7,150 nt of DNA. Origin: Nitrospinae bacterium RIFCSPLOWO2_12_FULL_45_22 (GTDB lineage: Bacteria > 2-12-FULL-45-22). The notes beneath the pieces were generated by a model. The model did not search any database, was not told the origin of the DNA, and saw only the letters and a list, made by a program, of their open reading frames with translations. Each line of letters opens with the position of its first letter. Positions within the stretch are counted from its first letter, which is position 1. Below are positions 1 to 7,150 of this stretch, one piece after another. The stretch lies in assembly GCA_001803565.1 (NCBI GenBank), contig MHDQ01000144.1, positions 1-7,150 of the forward strand, in the 5' to 3' direction. The position numbers were made by a program, and so were the translations under genes.

Positions 1-2724
1 GGGATTCTTGGTATTTTTTACCTCTTTCCAGGGCATCTTTATATTCCGAATGGTCCGCTCATCCCAATGCATCGCCTTAGGATCAATGCCATAATCCTCA
101 GGCCGGATGTAAGGATTAGAGCTGACAATAACATTGGGCAGGTAAGGGCTCGCCTCTGGACCTTCCCGGTGCACTACGAAGTTTTCTCCGTACTCGATGG
201 CATCAGGGATGTCACAGTAGGCATGGAGCCTGCCGGTATCGGTATAGAAAGGTATGCTGTCTGTAACCTGCTCATAAAAGGGATTCCTGGGATAAGTCCG
301 GAAAAGCATCAGTGCTGCCCCCGGCTCTCCGTACTTGCCTGCCATAATATCTTCCACTCTATACCCCACGGTAGTAGTGGATGAATCGAGGAGCCGCTGG
401 ATATAGACCTCCCGCTTTCCTTCCAGGGCAAACCTCCAGTAGTCGGAGAATCTCTTATCGCCCGTCAGCTCCCCCAGTTTCTTGGCGATCTCAGCTAATA
501 TTGTTAGGTCATCCCTGGTATCATATAAGGGCTTAATACCTCCCTTCCAGATTTGCAGGAAGGGATTAGAACAGGCGGCGGTGATCTCTAATCCCTCAAA
601 CTCCATCCAGGAATTGGCTGGGAGGGCAATATCTGAATACTCGACACTGGCCGTCATCTCAATATCTACTGAGATGATTAATTCAACGTGGGGGTCTACG
701 TTCTTAAGCATATCGTAGGCATGCTTAGCATTGTTGATGAGATTAACATTGGAAAAGAACATCACCTTTGTCGGGGTGGGCATATGGGTCTTGCCGGTGA
801 ATACCTTACGGCCATGCTTAGGGGTTTCAACTATTAATGGCCGGTCTCCATGATTCCAGTAGGCCGGCTCTTCATCCTTGGTATAGGCATGGGCATGGAT
901 TTCCTTTCCATGAGCCTTTTCATCCAGGTTCATCTGGAAGGGGTCTTCAGCTACCCAACCCTTGAAGCCTGGGCCCGTCTCTGCTGAGCCCTGAAAAAGG
1001 GCTGACTTATAATTGCCTGCCCAGGTATGGGCACCAGAGCCAGGGATACCAATATTGCCGGTAAGCATTAAGGGTAGATAGGTAGCCCGGTTATGAAGGG
1101 TAGCATGGAAATAATGATTAATCCCTTCGCCGTAATGGATAGAAACGGGTTTAATGGTAGCAATATCATGAGCCAGCCTGAGGATCAGGTCTTTTGGGGC
1201 ATGAGTAATCTCTACGACGGTATCTATATCATAGTCCTGGAGATGGATTTTATACATCTCCCAAAGGGTCATGGCTTCAACGCTGCTACCATCTGCCAAT
1301 TTGACCTGACCTTTCCATTCCAGCTTTGGGTCAATCCCCTTCTCAACCATCTTGGCGCCCACATGGTCTCTGGTAATAGCCTGTGGCTCGCCAGTCTTAG
1401 AATCTATAACTACATAATCCCCTAGTTTTTCGTACTGTTCGTCCTTAAGACCATGGAGTTTGAAGCTGGCACCATCTTTGCTCAGGCCGGGTTTATAACC
1501 GGGAAATACCTCATGAGCCCTGAGACGCATTAGGTTATCGGTCCGGACTAACAGGGGAAGGTCGGTGAATTTCTTGACAAAATCCTCATCATATTTCTTT
1601 TCATCCATCAGGATCTTAGTGATCCCTAAGAATATGGCAGTATCAGAGAGACCGGGTCTTACTGGGATATAGTAATCGGCCTTGGCACCCGGCGGATTAT
1701 ACTCCGGGGCTATGACGACAATCTTTCCTCCTCGTTCTACCGTCTCATTGAGCCAATGGGATTCGGGCATCTTGTTCTCTATAAGGTTTTTACCTACCTG
1801 GATAGTCAGCTTGGAGAAGCGGATATCATTAAAGTCTATCTCAGAAGCCTGGAGACCATGGACATAGGGATGACCTGGGGCCTGGTCACCATGCCAGGTA
1901 TAGTTAGACCAGGTTCTTCCTCCTAAAGCCCGCTCCGGCTCTACCTTCCGGATATGGGTATCTAACAAGGCCAAAGAATTGCTTAGACGATACATACCAT
2001 ATTTGCCTATAACGCCAAGGAGGCCCATGCCACCCCGGAGCTTGAAAGTCCGGGTGCCGGCGATTCCTCCTTGAGTATCCTTCATCGGCTCGATCATCTC
2101 TGGGGGATACCCTTCATCGAGCAGACGTTTGGCACCCTCCTCGCCACTATATGTTTGGGCAATATGGATAAACCCTTTGGCTATATAGTCATTTACCTCC
2201 TCCCAAGATGCTCTAACAAACTCGTCCTGCCCCCGGGCATCAAACATATACTTGCTTTTATTCGCTGGTGTAAGCTCGGGAAAACCGTCATCCGCCCATT
2301 GTTTCCATCCCTTACGGATGATAGGATATTTAAGCCGGTAAGGGCCGTAGACCCGCCGAGGGAAGGTATAACCTTTGAGACACATCCGGGGATTCCAGTT
2401 AGGAGTCGCCTTATTTCCATAGAGATCAGAGTATCTTTGATGGTCATAATTCTGCTCTACCCGTACTGCTACCCCATTTCGGACAAATGCCTTTACCCGG
2501 CAATGATGGGTATCGTTCGGAGAACAAACAAAGGTAAAAGAAGAATCATAACGGTACTGATCATGATAAATCTTTTCCCAATCCCGGTCGGGATAGTTTT
2601 CTAAAGGATTACCAACGTCTACCGCGGGCTGCAAGCTCTTGAGCCCGTAAGCTTTACCAGTAATAGCTGTCAATACTCCGGCCGTCAAGGACCCTTTCAA
2701 AAACTTCCTTCTGGTTAGATCCAT
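1..2724 (-). CDS. nxrA: Nitrite oxidoreductase alpha subunit NxrA, Nitrospira/anammox type (partial, C-terminus outside window)
   Basis: Molybdopterin catalytic subunit of the type II DMSO reductase family. It oxidises nitrite to nitrate, or the reverse, on the periplasmic side, with NxrB and NxrC as partners. The 908 codons present run off the low edge; as I recall the family it is about 1,130-1,150 residues long. The N-terminus carries a twin-arginine export signal (TRRKFLK, residues 4-10, then a hydrophobic stretch). The FS0 iron-sulfur set is C67-x3-D71-x3-C75 and C115; the Cys/Asp pattern differs from His-x3-Cys-x3-Cys of cytoplasmic NarG and fits the Nxr clade. The segment [15 protein letters not shown] (272-286) holds D280, the likely Mo ligand. 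Long stretches match my memory of Kuenenia and Nitrospira NxrA (for example [35 protein letters not shown]). The start is ATG at 2724, with GGAGG 8 bases upstream. nxrB and nxrC are not in the window. Reaction direction in vivo is inferred; a nitrate-reducing homologue of the clade is the alternative. Confidence 0.93.
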
Positions 2725-2920
2725 TATCCCTTCCTCCACAAATAATAACTAATAACCAAACAAAAACTCAAAGGCGGCACAGGTAAAAACTCCCTTTTTT
2801 ATCAGGCATTCTTTATTTCCTCGTTGGCATTTTTAAAACAAGAGGGATAAAAATGACATCTATTTATCCCCATTATTCTCAAAATCCCCCTCTTTTGTTC
2901 GGTTGATATGTTATACCCTT
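2725..2920 (-). promoter_or_regulatory. nxrA leader / intergenic region
   Basis: AT-rich gap between the HExxH gene and nxrA. It must hold any promoter specific to nxrA, but I see no clear -35/-10 pair and no -24/-12 sigma-54 motif. It does hold a strong ribosome binding site for nxrA (GGAGGAAGGG, 2728-2737) and an inverted repeat listed separately. The gap of nearly 200 bases suggests nxrA is transcribed at least partly on its own. Confidence 0.4.
2838..2899 (-). terminator. Imperfect inverted repeat downstream of the HExxH gene, possible terminator or leader structure
   Basis: Read on the minus strand, an arm containing ACAAAAGAGGGGGAT (about 2884-2898) can pair with ATCCCTCTTGT (2838-2848), with extra unpaired A and G bases in the longer arm. 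The second arm runs into TTTTAAAAA. It begins 22 bases after the stop codon of the HExxH gene. The loop of roughly 35 bases is long for an intrinsic terminator, so a regulatory fold in the nxrA leader is as likely. Confidence 0.25.
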
Positions 2921-3925
2921 TCAATTAGTCATAGCCTCTACCATAATACTGTAACACTCTATGCACCTGGAACAGGCCCCATCCTCTACGGCCCATTGAG
3001 GATGATTCTCCTGAATAATTTTTATTACCGGCTCCTCAAGCTTTGCGGGCAAGTCATCTTCCCAGTAATAAGTGGGAAAACGGCAGAGGGGGCAGGGTGT
3101 TCCCGGAATATTCACTTTATTGCTATTACCGTTACCTTCTAGATAAAGGGTCCCGGTTCTTTTTATAAGATTGGATATATCTTGAGCCATCTCTAATAAA
3201 TCTCTATGGGTCAAGTCTTTGGCATTCCAGAACCATTCAAATATTGTCTTCCTTTGAGACTCCGGCAACCCTTGATAAAGGGTATCAAATTCCTCTACCC
3301 GCTTATCTCTTCCCTTCATCAATTCTTTACCCTGGCGGGATAGACGACCATCAATATAAATATCCCATAGTAAACTATATCGTTCCCTGACCCAATTTTT
3401 GGGAGACGGAATCATTTTAAGACCTTCGTCGTATTTAAATGCCTTATCGAGGATATCTGACACGTGCATAAATTCGTGGCGCAGAAAATTTTGTAACCGG
3501 TCTTTCTCAGTAAAATAGTGGCTCAGTAGTTTTATTAAGATGATTTTAGCGCCCCTCCCTTCTTTTTCACCCATAAGATCAGCGCCAGCATCTCCTTCAA
3601 AGGAAGCCATCTTAAGGTAGATAAGGTCTACATCGTCTTCAAATAAGGGGTATTCTCTAACGGTTTCCTCTAACGTATTTCCTAATCTCCATTTACGAAA
3701 GAGCTTCTGGTAGATAAGCTGGAAGGCTTTATCTCGTTCCTCCAGAGAATCCATTTCGTAAACCGGGTCTGTTAATGAATGATATTCCTTAAAAAACCCG
3801 AGATTCCCCTCCCCTTCTTTACGCTGAACTTCTAGCAAAACCACTGACTCAATTAATGCTGGGTCATACTGAATATCCATAATAGCGTATTCCCTTTGCC
3901 TTGGAGAAAAACTATTAAGTTGCAT
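2921..3925 (-). CDS. Unrecognised protein with HExxH motif and C-terminal zinc-ribbon-like cysteines
   Basis: I do not recognise this 334-residue protein as a named family. Residues 150-154 are HEFMH, an HExxH zinc-metalloprotease signature in a helix-like context. About 35 residues on, WDIYIDGRL (187-195) offers D188 and D192 as possible third metal ligands. The C-terminus has CPLC (278-281) and CSRC (318-321, plus C324), a spacing typical of a zinc ribbon. No signal peptide or membrane segment is seen, so it is probably cytoplasmic. The start is uncertain: the first ATG (3925) has no visible ribosome binding site, while ATG at 3880 (residue 16, MDIQYD) has AAAGGG 11 bases upstream. It lies just upstream of nxrA on the same strand, which hints at a role in maturing or regulating the oxidoreductase, but that is inference only. 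A non-proteolytic metal-binding protein is an alternative. Confidence 0.8.
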   Translation of the reverse strand: MQLNSFSPRQREYAIMDIQYDPALIESVVLLEVQRKEGEGNLGFFKEYHSLTDPVYEMDSLEERDKAFQLIYQKLFRKWRLGNTLEETVREYPLFEDDVDLIYLKMASFEGDAGADLMGEKEGRGAKIILIKLLSHYFTEKDRLQNFLRHEFMHVSDILDKAFKYDEGLKMIPSPKNWVRERYSLLWDIYIDGRLSRQGKELMKGRDKRVEEFDTLYQGLPESQRKTIFEWFWNAKDLTHRDLLEMAQDISNLIKRTGTLYLEGNGNSNKVNIPGTPCPLCRFPTYYWEDDLPAKLEEPVIKIIQENHPQWAVEDGACSRCIECYSIMVEAMTN

Positions 3926-3949
3926 TCATAACGAATGTAACGGAGACCC

Positions 3950-3980
3950 TAAAAGGAAAGGCGCCCAAAGGGCCCCCTGC
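3950..3980 (-). terminator. Possible weak terminator after the receiver-like gene
   Basis: On the minus strand GGGCCC-TTT-GGGCGCC forms a short GC-rich hairpin with a one-base bulge, followed by TTTCCTTTT. It lies between the receiver-like gene (stop at 4002) and the HExxH gene. The stem is short and the T run is interrupted, so this is a weak call. Confidence 0.3.
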
Positions 3981-4001
3981 CACTATAAGCGCTCCTGGTC
4001 T

Positions 4002-4379
4002 TTAAGGGTTTATGCAAGGATCCAGTTTTTGCAATACATTTGATAATTCTTCCTCTCTAACGGGAGTCGTTATAACTTTCCAGACCCCTGCCTGCAGAAT
4101 TTGTCTAGGATCAATTTGCGAGTTTTCTGGGATGACGGCTAGAATAGGGGCCTTCTTTGATGCTGCATGTATGGTAGAAACCATGTTCCAATCAAGGGCA
4201 TCGCCTAAACAAGCAATGATCAAGTTGAATTCCCTTTTATGAAGAAACTTTAAAGCCTCCAGGGTGTTGGAGGTAGTGATGGTGTGATAAGGACCCCGGT
4301 TTAAGACATCTTGCACTATCCTCTGGTCAGACGTTCCAGAATTAAAAACCAAGATATCCCTCGATATGGTTACCATCAC
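4002..4379 (-). CDS. Degenerate response-regulator receiver domain protein (pseudo-receiver), stand-alone
   Basis: The 125 residues have the alternating strand/helix pattern of a CheY-like receiver: DILVFNSG (8-15) as strand 1, EALKFL (41-46), FNLIIACLGD (51-60) as strand 3, APILAVIP (77-84) as strand 4, and VITTPVREEEL (102-112) as strand 5 with the conserved Pro before the last helix. The phosphorylation chemistry is gone. The acidic pair at the end of strand 1 is N-S, the acceptor Asp after strand 3 is A/C, the Thr/Ser of strand 4 is V/I, and the switch Lys before Pro is Thr. There is no output domain. It is likely a phosphorylation-independent protein-interaction module. The start is GTG (4379) or the next codon, ATG (4376); GGGAG lies 8 or 11 bases upstream respectively. 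It is co-directional with the HExxH gene and nxrA. Very low-identity receiver folds can be mimicked by other Rossmann-like domains. Confidence 0.72.
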   Translation of the reverse strand: MMVTISRDILVFNSGTSDQRIVQDVLNRGPYHTITTSNTLEALKFLHKREFNLIIACLGDALDWNMVSTIHAASKKAPILAVIPENSQIDPRQILQAGVWKVITTPVREEELSNVLQKLDPCINP

Positions 4380-4544: not shown

Positions 4545-4592
4545 CCTGGCAAGCAGGGCATTTTGCCCTGCTTGCCAGGGCAAAATGCCCTG
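4545..4592. repeat. Nested double palindrome (two hairpins of opposite loop sequence)
   Basis: Arms 4545-4560 and 4564-4579 are perfectly complementary over 16 bases with a TTT loop (core CAGGGCA-TTT-TGCCCTG). The second arm overlaps another hairpin, CAGGGCA-AAA-TGCCCTG (4576-4592), which repeats the same core with the complementary loop. The structure can therefore fold as either of two mutually exclusive hairpins. It is flanked by the direct repeat TAACTTTGC at 4537-4545 and 4607-4615. It may be a small REP/MITE-like element or a terminator; I see no T run. Confidence 0.7.
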
Positions 4593-4717
4593 CTGGGGTA
4601 GTAGCATAACTTTGCGGTTTAAGTAGCTTTTGATTATCATGGCGTCGCTCCTAAAACGATACAATCTTAAGCGTAACGAAAACGAGCTGAGCGGCGGGGC
4701 TGATCGTTAATTGATTC

Positions 4718-4813: not shown

Positions 4814-4913
4814 GTACGATAAATTGATTTAATACTATCTTCGATACCCTACCGCGGTAAATTGCTATCCTTTGCCATTGCCTTCTCGGTAAGACTCTAC
4901 TGCTTAGCACACC

Positions 4914-4986
4914 GTCTAACGATGTGCTGGCCGGCTGGAAATGAGCGTCAGCGATTTACCAATCCGTGTCCAGAGACTGGTTAGCA
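4914..4986 (-). repeat. Candidate integron recombination site attC-2, closing the toxin-antitoxin cassette
   Basis: Read on the minus strand, R'' is TGCTAAC (4980-4986) and R' is GTTAGAC (4914-4920), the latter a full match to GTTRRRY. Between them lies an imperfect stem: CTGG..CGG pairs with CCG.CCAG, and inside it GG.AAAT pairs with ATTTCC, leaving unpaired bases mainly on the R'' side as expected for extrahelical bases. Spacers of 6 bases separate both boxes from the stem. The site starts 11 bases after the toxin stop codon. R'' is exactly complementary to the TTAGCA at the start of the same cassette (5625-5630). Confidence 0.7.
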
Positions 4987-4996
4987 GGAAATGTTT

Positions 4997-5266
4997 TTAT
5001 TCAAATAAGTCAGAATGGGTACCAGTTCTTTCAAAGATTATTGCGGAACCTGTTATCTTGTAAATCAACAGCCAATCTGGCTCTATATGGCATTCCCGCC
5101 TGTTTTTATAGTTGCCTATTAATTTGTGGTCTTTATAATTAACATCAAGGCGGTCTCCATTTACAAGCTTTTTGATAACCTTTTTGATTTTTTCTGGGGA
5201 CTTCCCTCGTTTCTCCATTCTTTTTATATCTTTTACAAATTGCTTTGTATAAGAAGGAATTCGCAC
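4997..5266 (-). CDS. yafQ: YafQ-family mRNA interferase toxin (RelE/ParE superfamily)
   Basis: An 89-residue ribosome-dependent endoribonuclease toxin that cleaves mRNA in the ribosomal A site and is held inactive by the antitoxin encoded just upstream. It aligns along its length with E. coli YafQ, including KDHKL (45-49), CHIEPDWLLIYK (59-70) and FERTGTHSDLF (78-88). The YafQ functional residues H50, H63, D67, W68, H87 and F91 correspond to H47, H60, D64, W65, H84 and F88 here, so the toxin looks catalytically intact. The start codon is GTG, directly after the TAA of the antitoxin; a GGGG inside the antitoxin's last codons serves as ribosome binding site. This implies translational coupling and lower toxin output. 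Its stop lies 11 bases before attC-2. Confidence 0.92.
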   Translation of the reverse strand: MRIPSYTKQFVKDIKRMEKRGKSPEKIKKVIKKLVNGDRLDVNYKDHKLIGNYKNRRECHIEPDWLLIYKITGSAIIFERTGTHSDLFE

Positions 5267-5527
5267 TTATATCCCCAGCTTGTCGAACATATCATCTGCG
5301 TCTTCACAACGAATCAGATTCCTATTTGCGTCTGTGTCTTTGAATACCTTTTCAGTTGTTTTGTTGGGGATAACAACATTAAATGGCAACCCATTCCTTA
5401 ACTTAACCTGTCGATAAAATACAGTAATCGCCTCTGTTGCAGAAAGACCTAATTTTTCAAAAAGTTTTTCTACGTCTTCCTTAAGTTCAGGTTCAATTCG
5501 TGCTCTGACTGTAGCAGTCTTTGCCAT
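5267..5527 (-). CDS. dinJ: DinJ/RelB-family antitoxin
   Basis: Antitoxin of 86 residues, partner of the YafQ-type toxin and probable autorepressor of the pair. The N-terminus ATVRARIEPELKEDVEKLF and then LGLSATEAITVFYRQVKLRNGLPF is the ribbon-helix-helix DNA-binding region typical of DinJ/RelB. The C-terminal part is hydrophilic and likely wraps the toxin. An in-frame GTG lies upstream at 5536, but it is part of the ribosome binding site GGAGGTGG (5533-5540). ATG at 5527, 8 bases after GGAGG, is therefore the real start. The stop codon abuts the toxin GTG. The two CCCATATGGG palindromes upstream are the likely binding sites of the complex. Confidence 0.93.
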   Translation of the reverse strand: MAKTATVRARIEPELKEDVEKLFEKLGLSATEAITVFYRQVKLRNGLPFNVVIPNKTTEKVFKDTDANRNLIRCEDADDMFDKLGI

Positions 5528-5547
5528 AAACACCACCTCCCAATAAA

Positions 5548-5576
5548 AAAATAACCCATATGGGCTACGATGTCAA
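5548..5576 (-). promoter_or_regulatory. Promoter of the toxin-antitoxin operon
   Basis: On the minus strand, TTGACA (5571-5576) is a perfect -35 and TATTTT (5548-5553) a plausible -10, with an optimal 17-base spacer. The spacer contains operator 1. The antitoxin ATG lies 20 bases downstream of the -10, leaving a very short leader. Confidence 0.8.
5555..5564. promoter_or_regulatory. Operator 1, palindrome CCCATATGGG
   Basis: Perfect 10-base palindrome placed inside the -35/-10 spacer, where a bound repressor would block RNA polymerase. It is identical to operator 2, and ribbon-helix-helix antitoxins of this family bind such short palindromes. Binding by this antitoxin is inferred. Confidence 0.75.
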
Positions 5577-5589
5577 TTTGTTTTTGTGG

Positions 5590-5599
5590 CCCATATGGG
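5590..5599. promoter_or_regulatory. Operator 2, palindrome CCCATATGGG
   Basis: Second exact copy of the palindrome, centred 35 bases from the first and upstream of the -35 box. With the flanking C/G the two copies form a larger mirror-symmetric pair (CCCATATGGGC and GCCCATATGGG), which suggests cooperative binding or looping. Confidence 0.7.
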
Positions 5600-5616
5600 G
5601 TGTGTGTAGGGGATGT

Positions 5617-5622
5617 ATTATA
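5617..5622 (-). promoter_or_regulatory. Possible second -10 box (TATAAT) upstream of the operators
   Basis: A perfect TATAAT lies on the minus strand just inside the start of the cassette, but the matching -35 position (GTGATG, within attC-1) is poor. If used, transcription would start upstream of both operators. Confidence 0.3.
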
Positions 5623-5624
5623 CC

Positions 5625-5700
5625 TGCTAACGGCTGAGGCATCACCTGCGGGCGCGTCCGCGCGGGCGGGCGGTCCGTCAGGTGCATGCCCGGGTTCGAC
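5625..5700 (-). repeat. Candidate integron recombination site attC-1, between the two cassettes
   Basis: Read on the minus strand, R'' is GTCGAAC (5694-5700) and R' is GTTAGCA (5625-5631); each matches the consensus at 6 of 7 positions. The L arms are GGCATGCACCTG (5679-5690) and CAGGTGATGCC (5638-5648). They pair over 11 bases with one extra base on the R'' side, as the extrahelical base in known attC sites. The right half, CTCAGCCGTTAGC, closely resembles the CTCAAGCGTTAG of resistance-cassette attC sites. Unpaired spacers lie between the boxes and arms, and the apex is a GC-rich variable region. The stop codon of the upstream gene overlaps the site. Confidence 0.78.
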
Positions 5701-6810
5701 GACCCTTCCGCTGAAGAGGTTTCCCTGCAGTCAACTTGAATAGCACACTCAAGCCCGGATCCCCGGCGATCGTGATCCCGTGAGCGGAACCGAGGAGTTT
5801 CGTCATGTCCTTGCCAGCCTCTTCGATCGCCTTCAGGACGAGAGCACCCGTCGGATCCGCAAAGGAGGCCATTCCCAGTGATACCCATTTCAGAGCCGTG
5901 CCGAAAATCTTGCGCCAGAGCTTGCCCTTCTCCAGTTCAATTCTTCTATGGATTTCGGCAACGTAGGGCATGACGGTGGTCTCGACCAGGAAGCGGGCCT
6001 CCTCTCGGACGCGGGAGTAATCAGGCTTGTCGCCAAGCAGTTTCCGTAGCTCGGCGGCCAACTTCAGAGTCATCATGCGAAAGGGGACAAGTTCGTCTGA
6101 AAAACGCCCGCGTATCTCAAGCAAGTCCTCGGCGGTTGACCAGTGCACCGCTGGCATATGGAGAGAAAGGAGCTCCAGACCGATTGCCGCCGCTAGATCC
6201 GGCGCGGAGCGCAGCAGGGGCCGAACATCGGGAACCGGAAGAGCACCTTCGTCGCTAACCGCAATCCATCGGTTCTTGATTGCGAGGTACCGGGCGGAAG
6301 GCAGAACTCGGACAAGAATGTCGTCATCAAGCTCCGGATGCGCCTTGGTGAACTCTTCCACGGCCTCCAACTCGGGTGTCTTGCCCATGAGGAAGGCGGC
6401 GAATTCGTCCACAGGCAGCCCACCCGACGTGAGCTTGGAGACCATGTCATTGACCGTGGCGGTCAAGAGACCCGGGTGGTAGTAGACCGTGTCGCCAAGA
6501 AGCGGCTTGATGTCCAAAACGAAGCAGTAGAACTTGCCGGTCCTCTCGATGGTCTTCTGCGCACTAGGACCCGAATGGTCCCCCATCACCCCGATTTGGA
6601 TCTTGTCTGGAAGGCCCTTGAGATACTGGGTATATCTTGCGACCGTTGACGCGTCGTCGCTCAGGGTCACGAAATGGACGCGGTCAAAATAGAGGTGCAT
6701 CGACGCGAAGTGGTTTCGGTCGTGCGGGTAACAGTCTGGGTAGTAGATGGCCTCCAACGCCTCGTTGCTGCCTTGGGGCATGTGCCCACCTCCATGTTTG
6801 GTCCGTCGAA
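5631..6810 (-). mobile_element. Candidate integron gene cassette carrying an unrecognised gene
   Basis: The cassette starts with TTCGAC (6805-6810) and ends at the G of GTTAGCA (5631). Its start is exactly complementary to its own R'' box, GTCGAAC (5694-5700), as required for a circularised cassette. It contains one gene that fills nearly all of it. It is markedly GC-rich compared with its neighbours. The group II intron abuts its first base, so the preceding attC is interrupted. Confidence 0.7.
5678..6781 (-). CDS. Unrecognised cassette-encoded protein
   Basis: This 367-residue protein matches no family I can name. It starts at ATG 6781 with GGAGGT (6788-6793) 6 bases upstream. An in-frame ATG at 6832 would begin inside the group II intron and is rejected. 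The N-terminus (EAIYYPDCYPHDRNHF, then LYFDRVHFV) has a pattern weakly like the start of DUF6236-type proteins (aromatic-Pro stretch, then LYWDR), which is only a lead. The middle is mixed alpha/beta. A helical, acidic/basic stretch follows (ELRKLLGDKPDYSRVREEARF), then a moderately hydrophobic region (ALKWVSLGMASFADPTGALVL). No signal peptide or clear transmembrane helix is seen. The last residues are basic and encoded by the attC arm. Many integron cassettes encode such orphan proteins; a defence role is possible but unsupported. The gene is GC-rich, with G/C-ending codons unlike the nxr genes. Confidence 0.8.
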   Translation of the reverse strand: MPQGSNEALEAIYYPDCYPHDRNHFASMHLYFDRVHFVTLSDDASTVARYTQYLKGLPDKIQIGVMGDHSGPSAQKTIERTGKFYCFVLDIKPLLGDTVYYHPGLLTATVNDMVSKLTSGGLPVDEFAAFLMGKTPELEAVEEFTKAHPELDDDILVRVLPSARYLAIKNRWIAVSDEGALPVPDVRPLLRSAPDLAAAIGLELLSLHMPAVHWSTAEDLLEIRGRFSDELVPFRMMTLKLAAELRKLLGDKPDYSRVREEARFLVETTVMPYVAEIHRRIELEKGKLWRKIFGTALKWVSLGMASFADPTGALVLKAIEEAGKDMTKLLGSAHGITIAGDPGLSVLFKLTAGKPLQRKGRRTRACT

Positions 6811-6849
6811 TCGGGATAGGGGGACGTCTCACGACGCCCCTCCTCCCAC
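6811..6849 (-). ncRNA. Group II intron domain VI with branch-point adenosine
   Basis: The inner stem GGGGCGUC-GUGA-GACGUCCCC has one bulged base, and the outer stem pairs GGGA with UCCC. The A at 6817 (in CUAUCCC) is left unpaired between the two stems, 7 bases before the intron end at 6810. This is the expected position of the lariat branch point. Confidence 0.65.
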
Positions 6850-6883
6850 ACCACCGGGCATACGGATCACGTACCTCGGCGGT
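6850..6883 (-). ncRNA. Group II intron domain V (catalytic hairpin)
   Basis: Exactly 34 bases, the canonical length. The lower stem ACCGCCG pairs with CGGUGGU, including a G-U wobble at the position of the catalytic triad, which would be CGC. The upper stem UACG/CGUA and its small loop are separated from the lower stem by an asymmetric bulge on the 3' side, as in known domain V folds. Confidence 0.75.
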
Positions 6884-7150
6884 TCGGCTGATTAAGTCAA
6901 CCAGACTTGTTGACCGAGGCGTCTCTTCTTAGCTCCGGTCACGAATTTCACCGGGTCTAGTGCATTATCCATGAGCGTTACTAAGCAACTTCCTCTCTCT
7001 TTTAATCCCTTTCGGGAACCGTTCAGGCCTTCGGAGACGGCATGACACCAAACTCAGTCCGTTTAGGTCAAGAGTTTCCGTCACCTGCTCTTTCGATATA
7101 CAGGGCGGGTTCCTAGTTCGTCCATGCGAGCCTTGCCTGCTGCCTGCGTC

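Follow-up and report, generated by a model that had tools for sequence, protein, structure and literature searches.

The window, meaning the whole stretch of DNA that was analysed, is the complete 7,150-bp contig C144 of Nitrospinae bacterium RIFCSPLOWO2_12_FULL_45_22, whose assembly is fragmented (3.67 Mb in 321 contigs, 85% complete) to a degree at which misbinning of a single contig is possible. Its minus strand carries, from left to right, an NxrA homologue, a 334-aa ORF, a response-regulator-like ORF and a cassette region (Table 1). The sequence bears out the claim of the first-pass annotation that a nitrite oxidoreductase locus adjoins the cassettes: the best solved relative of the NxrA homologue is subunit A of the nitrite oxidoreductase 7b04 (approximately 1438 bits), with similarity over its full length (residues 6-912), and nitrite oxidoreductase activity is predicted. 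NxrA-related enzymes also reduce nitrate or other oxyanions. Among named genomes, the top identity is with Ca. Schekmanbacteria GWA2_38_11 (79% over residues 416-913), followed by values of 47-70% for the others. The adjoining 334-aa ORF has no family in Pfam or NCBIfam. A set of nested, perfect inverted repeats (CCTGGCAAGCAGGGCA / TGCCCTGCTTGCCAGG) at 4545-4594, in the space that separates the response-regulator-like ORF from the array, is possibly a REP- or MITE-like element; Rfam matches to miRNA families at 4552-4594 were rejected in favour of a plain inverted repeat.

The cassette region consists of two gene units, each ended by a hairpin, and is bordered on the outside by part of a group II intron. 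Cassette 1 contains a toxin-antitoxin pair, in which the antitoxin gene has a possible ATG start at 5527. An inverted repeat with two CCCATATGGG palindromes lies ahead of the pair and is probably its operator. The 367-aa protein of cassette 2 has no family in Pfam, NCBIfam or PADLOC. Searches of plasmids, of 59 other genomes and of viral contigs gave no match to it, and AlphaFold, run without relatives, gave no usable model (pLDDT 37).

Table 1. Features of the 7,150-bp window, in order of position.
Feature	Position	Strand	Description
NxrA homologue	1..2739	minus	TAT signal; 7b04_B 1437.7 bits; 3' end cut by contig end; outside array
334-aa ORF adjoining nxrA	2921-3925	minus	HExxH motif (HEFMH), cysteine pairs
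attC_A	4914..4986	minus	R'' TGCTAAC 4986-4980; R' GTTAGAC 4920-4914; stem CTGG.A.C.A.CGG / CCGGCCAG
Cassette 1	4920..5630	minus	711 bp; first bases TTAGCA, last base the G preceding the cut point of the next R'
YafQ/RelE-family toxin gene (cassette 1)	4997..5266	minus	PF15738, E 1.5e-33; TIGR02385, 81.2 bits (cut-off 27.9)
RelB/DinJ-family antitoxin gene (cassette 1)	5267..5536	minus	PF04221, E 3.5e-10; TIGR02384, 61.0 bits (cut-off 45.65)
Inverted-repeat pair	5555..5599	none	Ahead of the toxin-antitoxin pair; probable operator
attC_B	5625..5700	minus	R'' GTCGAAC 5700-5694; R' GTTAGCA 5631-5625; stem GGCAT.G.CACCTG.A.CGG / CAGGTG ATGCC
Cassette 2	5631..6809	minus	First T across the intron; TCGAC 6809-6805 matches R'' of attC_B
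367-aa ORF (cassette 2)	5678..6781	minus	ATG at 6781; GGAGGTG Shine-Dalgarno; stop inside attC_B
Group II intron, 3' part	6810..7150	minus	D4 remainder, D5, D6; ends ...CCCTATCCCGAT; runs off contig end

Cassette borders and attC hairpins

The first-pass annotation had taken the region for two successive integron cassettes, on the ground that the first bases of each unit are complementary to the R'' box of its own terminal attC (TTAGCA/TGCTAAC and TTCGAC/GTCGAAC). Read on the sequence, both matches are exact. The start of cassette 1 (GTTAGCA) agrees with its R'' at four of four variable bases, and so does that of cassette 2, (T)TCGAC at 6809, so that both units have the complementarity that belongs to a G^TT junction. 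The match of the second start stands, with one amendment to its bases: the T at 6810, with which TTCGAC opens, still belongs to the intron as its final base, and the cassette's own first T lies across the intron. The annotated difference in base composition is likewise present, cassette 1 having a GC content of 0.39 against 0.59 in cassette 2.

Both hairpins have the R''/R' and L''/L' boxes of attC sites, an imperfect inverted repeat and unpaired bases on one arm. When each site is joined to the start of the cassette that it ends, which reproduces the free cassette circle, the bottom strand folds with z scores of -2.9 (attC_A) and -3.9 (attC_B), and both folds leave two unpaired bases, restricted to one arm; if the R' found in the array is used instead, the values are -1.4 and -2.1, respectively. 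The stem of attC_A is imperfect in the fold, and no T run was found 3' of either hairpin.

Covariance models gave weak support at the level of the single site. The first model (R1) was built from the arms of known attCs, namely those of eight class 1 integron cassettes and one Kovacikia plasmid attC, because MAFFT misaligned the L boxes of whole attCs; one alignment that included an approximated OXA-1 arm was tried and dropped. R1 places attC_A at 4914-4986 (6.5 bits, E 3.6) and did not find attC_B in the window. A second model (R2), made from 36 R1 matches elsewhere in the genome and none from the window, has attC_B as its top match in the window (5626-5700, 10.4 bits, E 0.46) and returns attC_A at the same position (6.9 bits, E 2.6). 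R2 recovers both sites on the minus strand where the first-pass annotation had placed them, but with weak E-values, and R1 misses one of them. The low scores arise in part because the R'' and R' of one site derive from different cassettes in an array. A box-and-stem scan that demanded R''-R' pairing within one site missed both sites, since their R' belongs to the next cassette, and an Rfam scan of the window returned no attC family match. Single-site covariance scores are insufficient by themselves, and it is the genome-wide evidence that settles whether these are attCs.

The integron system of the genome

A search of the genome with R1 yielded 11 attCs other than those of the window at E<0.01, clustered on contigs such as C261, C304, C216 and C17. 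With R2, there are 61 matches at E<=1, 36 of them by construction. A loose attC pattern performed no better than its reversed control (121 versus 213 matches) and was used for the choice of contigs only. The arms of attC_B are identical to those of an attC in an array on contig C206 (L026 2167-2226, 32.7 bits), and the string CAGGTGATGCC is found again on C17 and C131. An attC type with CACCTG...CAGGTG arms recurs, in whole or in part, at L026 2167, L038 9243-9253, L029 186-196, L134 8361-8452 and, in the window, 5638-5648.

The relation between R'' and the upstream R' could be followed across the genome in 31 consecutive attC pairs. The two boxes agree at four of four variable bases in 19 of these (61%), the pair in the window being one of the 19, compared with 4.4% upon random pairing of the same boxes. 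A four-base match had been called unlikely by chance, and this holds now that the rule is seen genome-wide.

Two integron integrases exceed the TIGR02249 cut-off of 265, on C243 (467 bits) and C304 (439 bits). Both are 49-50% identical to IntI1 and retain the catalytic residues R146, H277, R280, H303 and Y312. On C304, intI (4868-5809, plus strand) lies beside a divergent run of attCs (90-4158, minus strand), which is the layout of a complete integron. Both an integrase and further attCs, whose absence would have told against the first-pass annotation, are present in the genome. Further integrase fragments below the family cut-off, some of them in pieces, are present on C115, C136, C7, C317, C55 and C202. 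Contig C140 (L036) carries, at 438-7860, attCs and a truncated intron copy alongside a molybdopterin oxidoreductase and an iron-sulfur subunit. Outside this genome, R2 gives nine attC matches in Ca. Schekmanbacteria GWA2_38_11 (G060) and four in G001, the one other genome of the host order among the relatives returned.

An intron in the R' box and the extent of the array

On its outer side, cassette 2 is bounded not by an attI or attC junction but by the 3' terminus of a group IIC-type intron, which splits the R' box as GT^TCGAC. RF00029 matches the D5/D6 region of the window intron at 6884-6810; the score, 23.4 bits, falls short of the gathering threshold (40). The window intron is 88% identical to a copy on C17, and blastn aligns it at approximately 80-93% over approximately 80 bp with plasmid group II introns. 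The C17 copy has both ends, reading ...CTCAACCGT^GTGTGCCGGGC ... CCCTATCCCGAT^TAGCTG (carets mark the junctions). D1-D4 (RF02001) score 122 bits in C17 and 125 bits in C87, and the intron 5' part is 72% identical over its whole length to plasmid copies. With the class ends GUGYG...AY, here GTGTG...AT, these domains identify the intron as class IIC, the window itself having D5/D6 only.

The positions of the ends are consistent between copies. At the 5' side we read ...GCAGCGT^GTGTGCC in C87 and ...TTCGGCGT^GTGTGCC in C140, and in C17, C87 and C140 alike the intron begins directly after the GT of an attC R'. At the 3' side, C140 has GAT^TATGCC and the window GAT^TCGACG. The intron of plasmid pVb0499, which may be the published Enterobacter cloacae intron, is inserted in the aadA1 attC (CAAGCGT^GTGTGTC ... 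GAT^TAGATG). The 3' end has the same form in C17, C144, C140 and pVb0499, and the T of the R' box follows each. The exact cut is placed by the class ends, because the 5' GT can be read as the end of the exon or the start of the intron. In C17, C87/C144, C140 and pVb0499, the intron splits R' as GT^T and runs parallel to the cassettes. No reverse transcriptase frame is present in the window part (6810..7150) and none was seen in the C140 copy, whereas pVb0499 has ltrA. A search of the genome for intron proteins gave two weak PF08388 matches and no intact protein was recognised; the C17 copy has an N gap.

Counting C87 and C144 as one, this genome has three intron insertions (C17, C87/C144 and C140), all of them in attCs. 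In the same-order relative G001, an intron copy follows an attC-like hairpin, as judged by eye, and is likely an insertion at the same attC place and in cassette orientation. On two viral contigs (L152 near 3566 and L153 near 2327, minus-strand coordinates), 5' ends of introns of the same class come right after terminator-like hairpins, and these copies were rejected as attC insertions. Class C introns usually sit after terminator-like hairpins.

Contig C87 stops inside D4 and C144 starts approximately 7 bp further on, as measured on the C17 copy. Because C87 is the only unmatched 5' half and C144 the only unmatched 3' half, the two are probably one intron, C87 being assigned to the window by elimination. 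Past its one interrupted attC, C87 is chromosomal, with ABC-transporter, radical-SAM and GGDEF genes, and a search of it with R2 gave no match. A TIGR02249 search of C144 found no integrase, so that the window does not have the intI and attI of a complete integron. It does have two attCs 640 bp apart and no integrase nearby, which is the definition of a CALIN (at least two close attCs). Together, the window and C87 probably make up a short CALIN that has ordinary genes on one side and the nxr region on the other. Of the annotated integron array beside the nxr locus, the cassettes therefore stand, but with no intI on the contig it is better called a CALIN than a complete integron.

It is extremely improbable that the hairpins are chance inverted repeats, such as terminators, behind two unrelated genes with coincidental box matches. 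The weak single-site scores would suit that origin, but both units fit a rule that random pairing of boxes reproduces in so few cases, attC_B has a near twin inside the C206 array, in each fold the two unpaired bases are confined to a single arm, no T run stands behind the hairpins, and a group II intron occupies the expected R' box. A decayed array, made of former cassettes whose attCs are no longer recombinogenic and which have no present mobility, is a possible if somewhat unlikely reading. The intact R boxes, cassette-start matches and one-sided unpaired bases speak against it, as do the catalytic residues kept by two integrases in the genome; for it are the low covariance scores, the imperfect stem of attC_A, the neighbouring R' box interrupted by an intron and a contig without integrase.

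A further alternative is that the window belongs to the genome's main integron, whose intI would lie further along the same array, and is not a separate CALIN. The contig ends in an intron, after which further array could come, and C304 does have intI with a run of attCs. However, the best candidate for the other side is C87, which goes from one interrupted attC straight to ABC-transporter, radical-SAM and GGDEF genes and has no R2 match, and we consider membership of the main integron unlikely.

The boxes and hairpins, the dozens of further attCs and the two integrases over the TIGR02249 cut-off uphold the annotation of two successive cassettes, and with the same-position intron ends in several attCs these observations strongly suggest that an uncultivated bacterium with a chromosomal integron system carries a short array of cassettes (a CALIN) in this region, and that a group IIC-type intron inserted afterwards.

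Origin of the array and relation to known systems

On this CALIN reading, each gene unit would once have been a free circle, its attC hairpin folded from the bottom strand. An integron integrase of the genome would cut R' between G and TT and join the attC to another attC or to attI; cleavage at that point makes each cassette start complementary to its own R''. The cargo gained would have been a RelB/YafQ pair with its own likely operator (cassette 1) and an orphan gene (cassette 2). A group IIC-type intron would later have retrohomed into the R' that borders cassette 2 upstream (GT^TCGAC), probably by recognising the hairpin of the attC top strand. The integrases encoded elsewhere in the genome may act in trans on attC_A and attC_B.

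CALINs are common, and integrons have been reported across many bacterial phyla and archaea (PMC9668308). The window resembles known CALINs in its successive co-oriented cassettes, attCs with R and L boxes and one arm with unpaired bases, G^TT junctions, and toxin-antitoxin and orphan cargo on a contig without intI. It differs from them in its host, an uncultivated lineage with an NxrA homologue, in holding two whole cassettes only, and in the CACCTG/CAGGTG arms, which place attC_B in a small group of local attCs. From the complete integron on C304, with IntI beside a divergent attC run, it differs by having neither intI nor attI.

The introns share with the group IIC-attC introns of the S.ma.I2 type their class, the use of attC and a split GT/T motif. 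The usual target of group IIC-attC introns, however, is R'' (TTGT/T) on the bottom strand of attC, and they run antiparallel to the cassettes (PMC7923331), whereas those on C17, C87/C144 and C140 all lie in R' and parallel to the cassettes. The same source describes one Enterobacter cloacae group IIC intron, called non-IIC-attC, that is on the top strand in cassette orientation (PMC7923331), and by position and orientation the introns here are of the same sort as the case described there. With the pVb0499 intron they share the cassette orientation, the GT^T point in R', and closely similar D5/D6 and ends; what differs here is the number, since a single genome holds at least three insertions, each of them in an attC. 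We tentatively put forward, as quite possible, that a branch of group IIC introns uses the attC top strand (R', in cassette direction) as a regular target and lives in the integrons of an uncultivated environmental lineage; the basis for this is the three insertions found here, a further probable one in a relative and a single plasmid type.

The cassettes themselves are ordinary; what lends them a little added weight is the bacterium they occur in, the extent of its integron system and the recurrence of introns in the same orientation. An uncultivated bacterium that has a nitrite-oxidoreductase-type enzyme is here found to carry an integron system of considerable size (two integrases and approximately 60 attC matches), and a literature search for integron and nitrite oxidoreductase together returned passing mentions only. 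For the detection of such systems, matching of cassette starts to R'' can confirm divergent attCs that covariance models score near background. With introns recurring at one point of the attC top strand, the published oddity looks like a testable target preference. If a regular preference of this kind is true, the same-orientation intron of clinical integrons would be an offshoot of environmental introns and not the product of a stray event.
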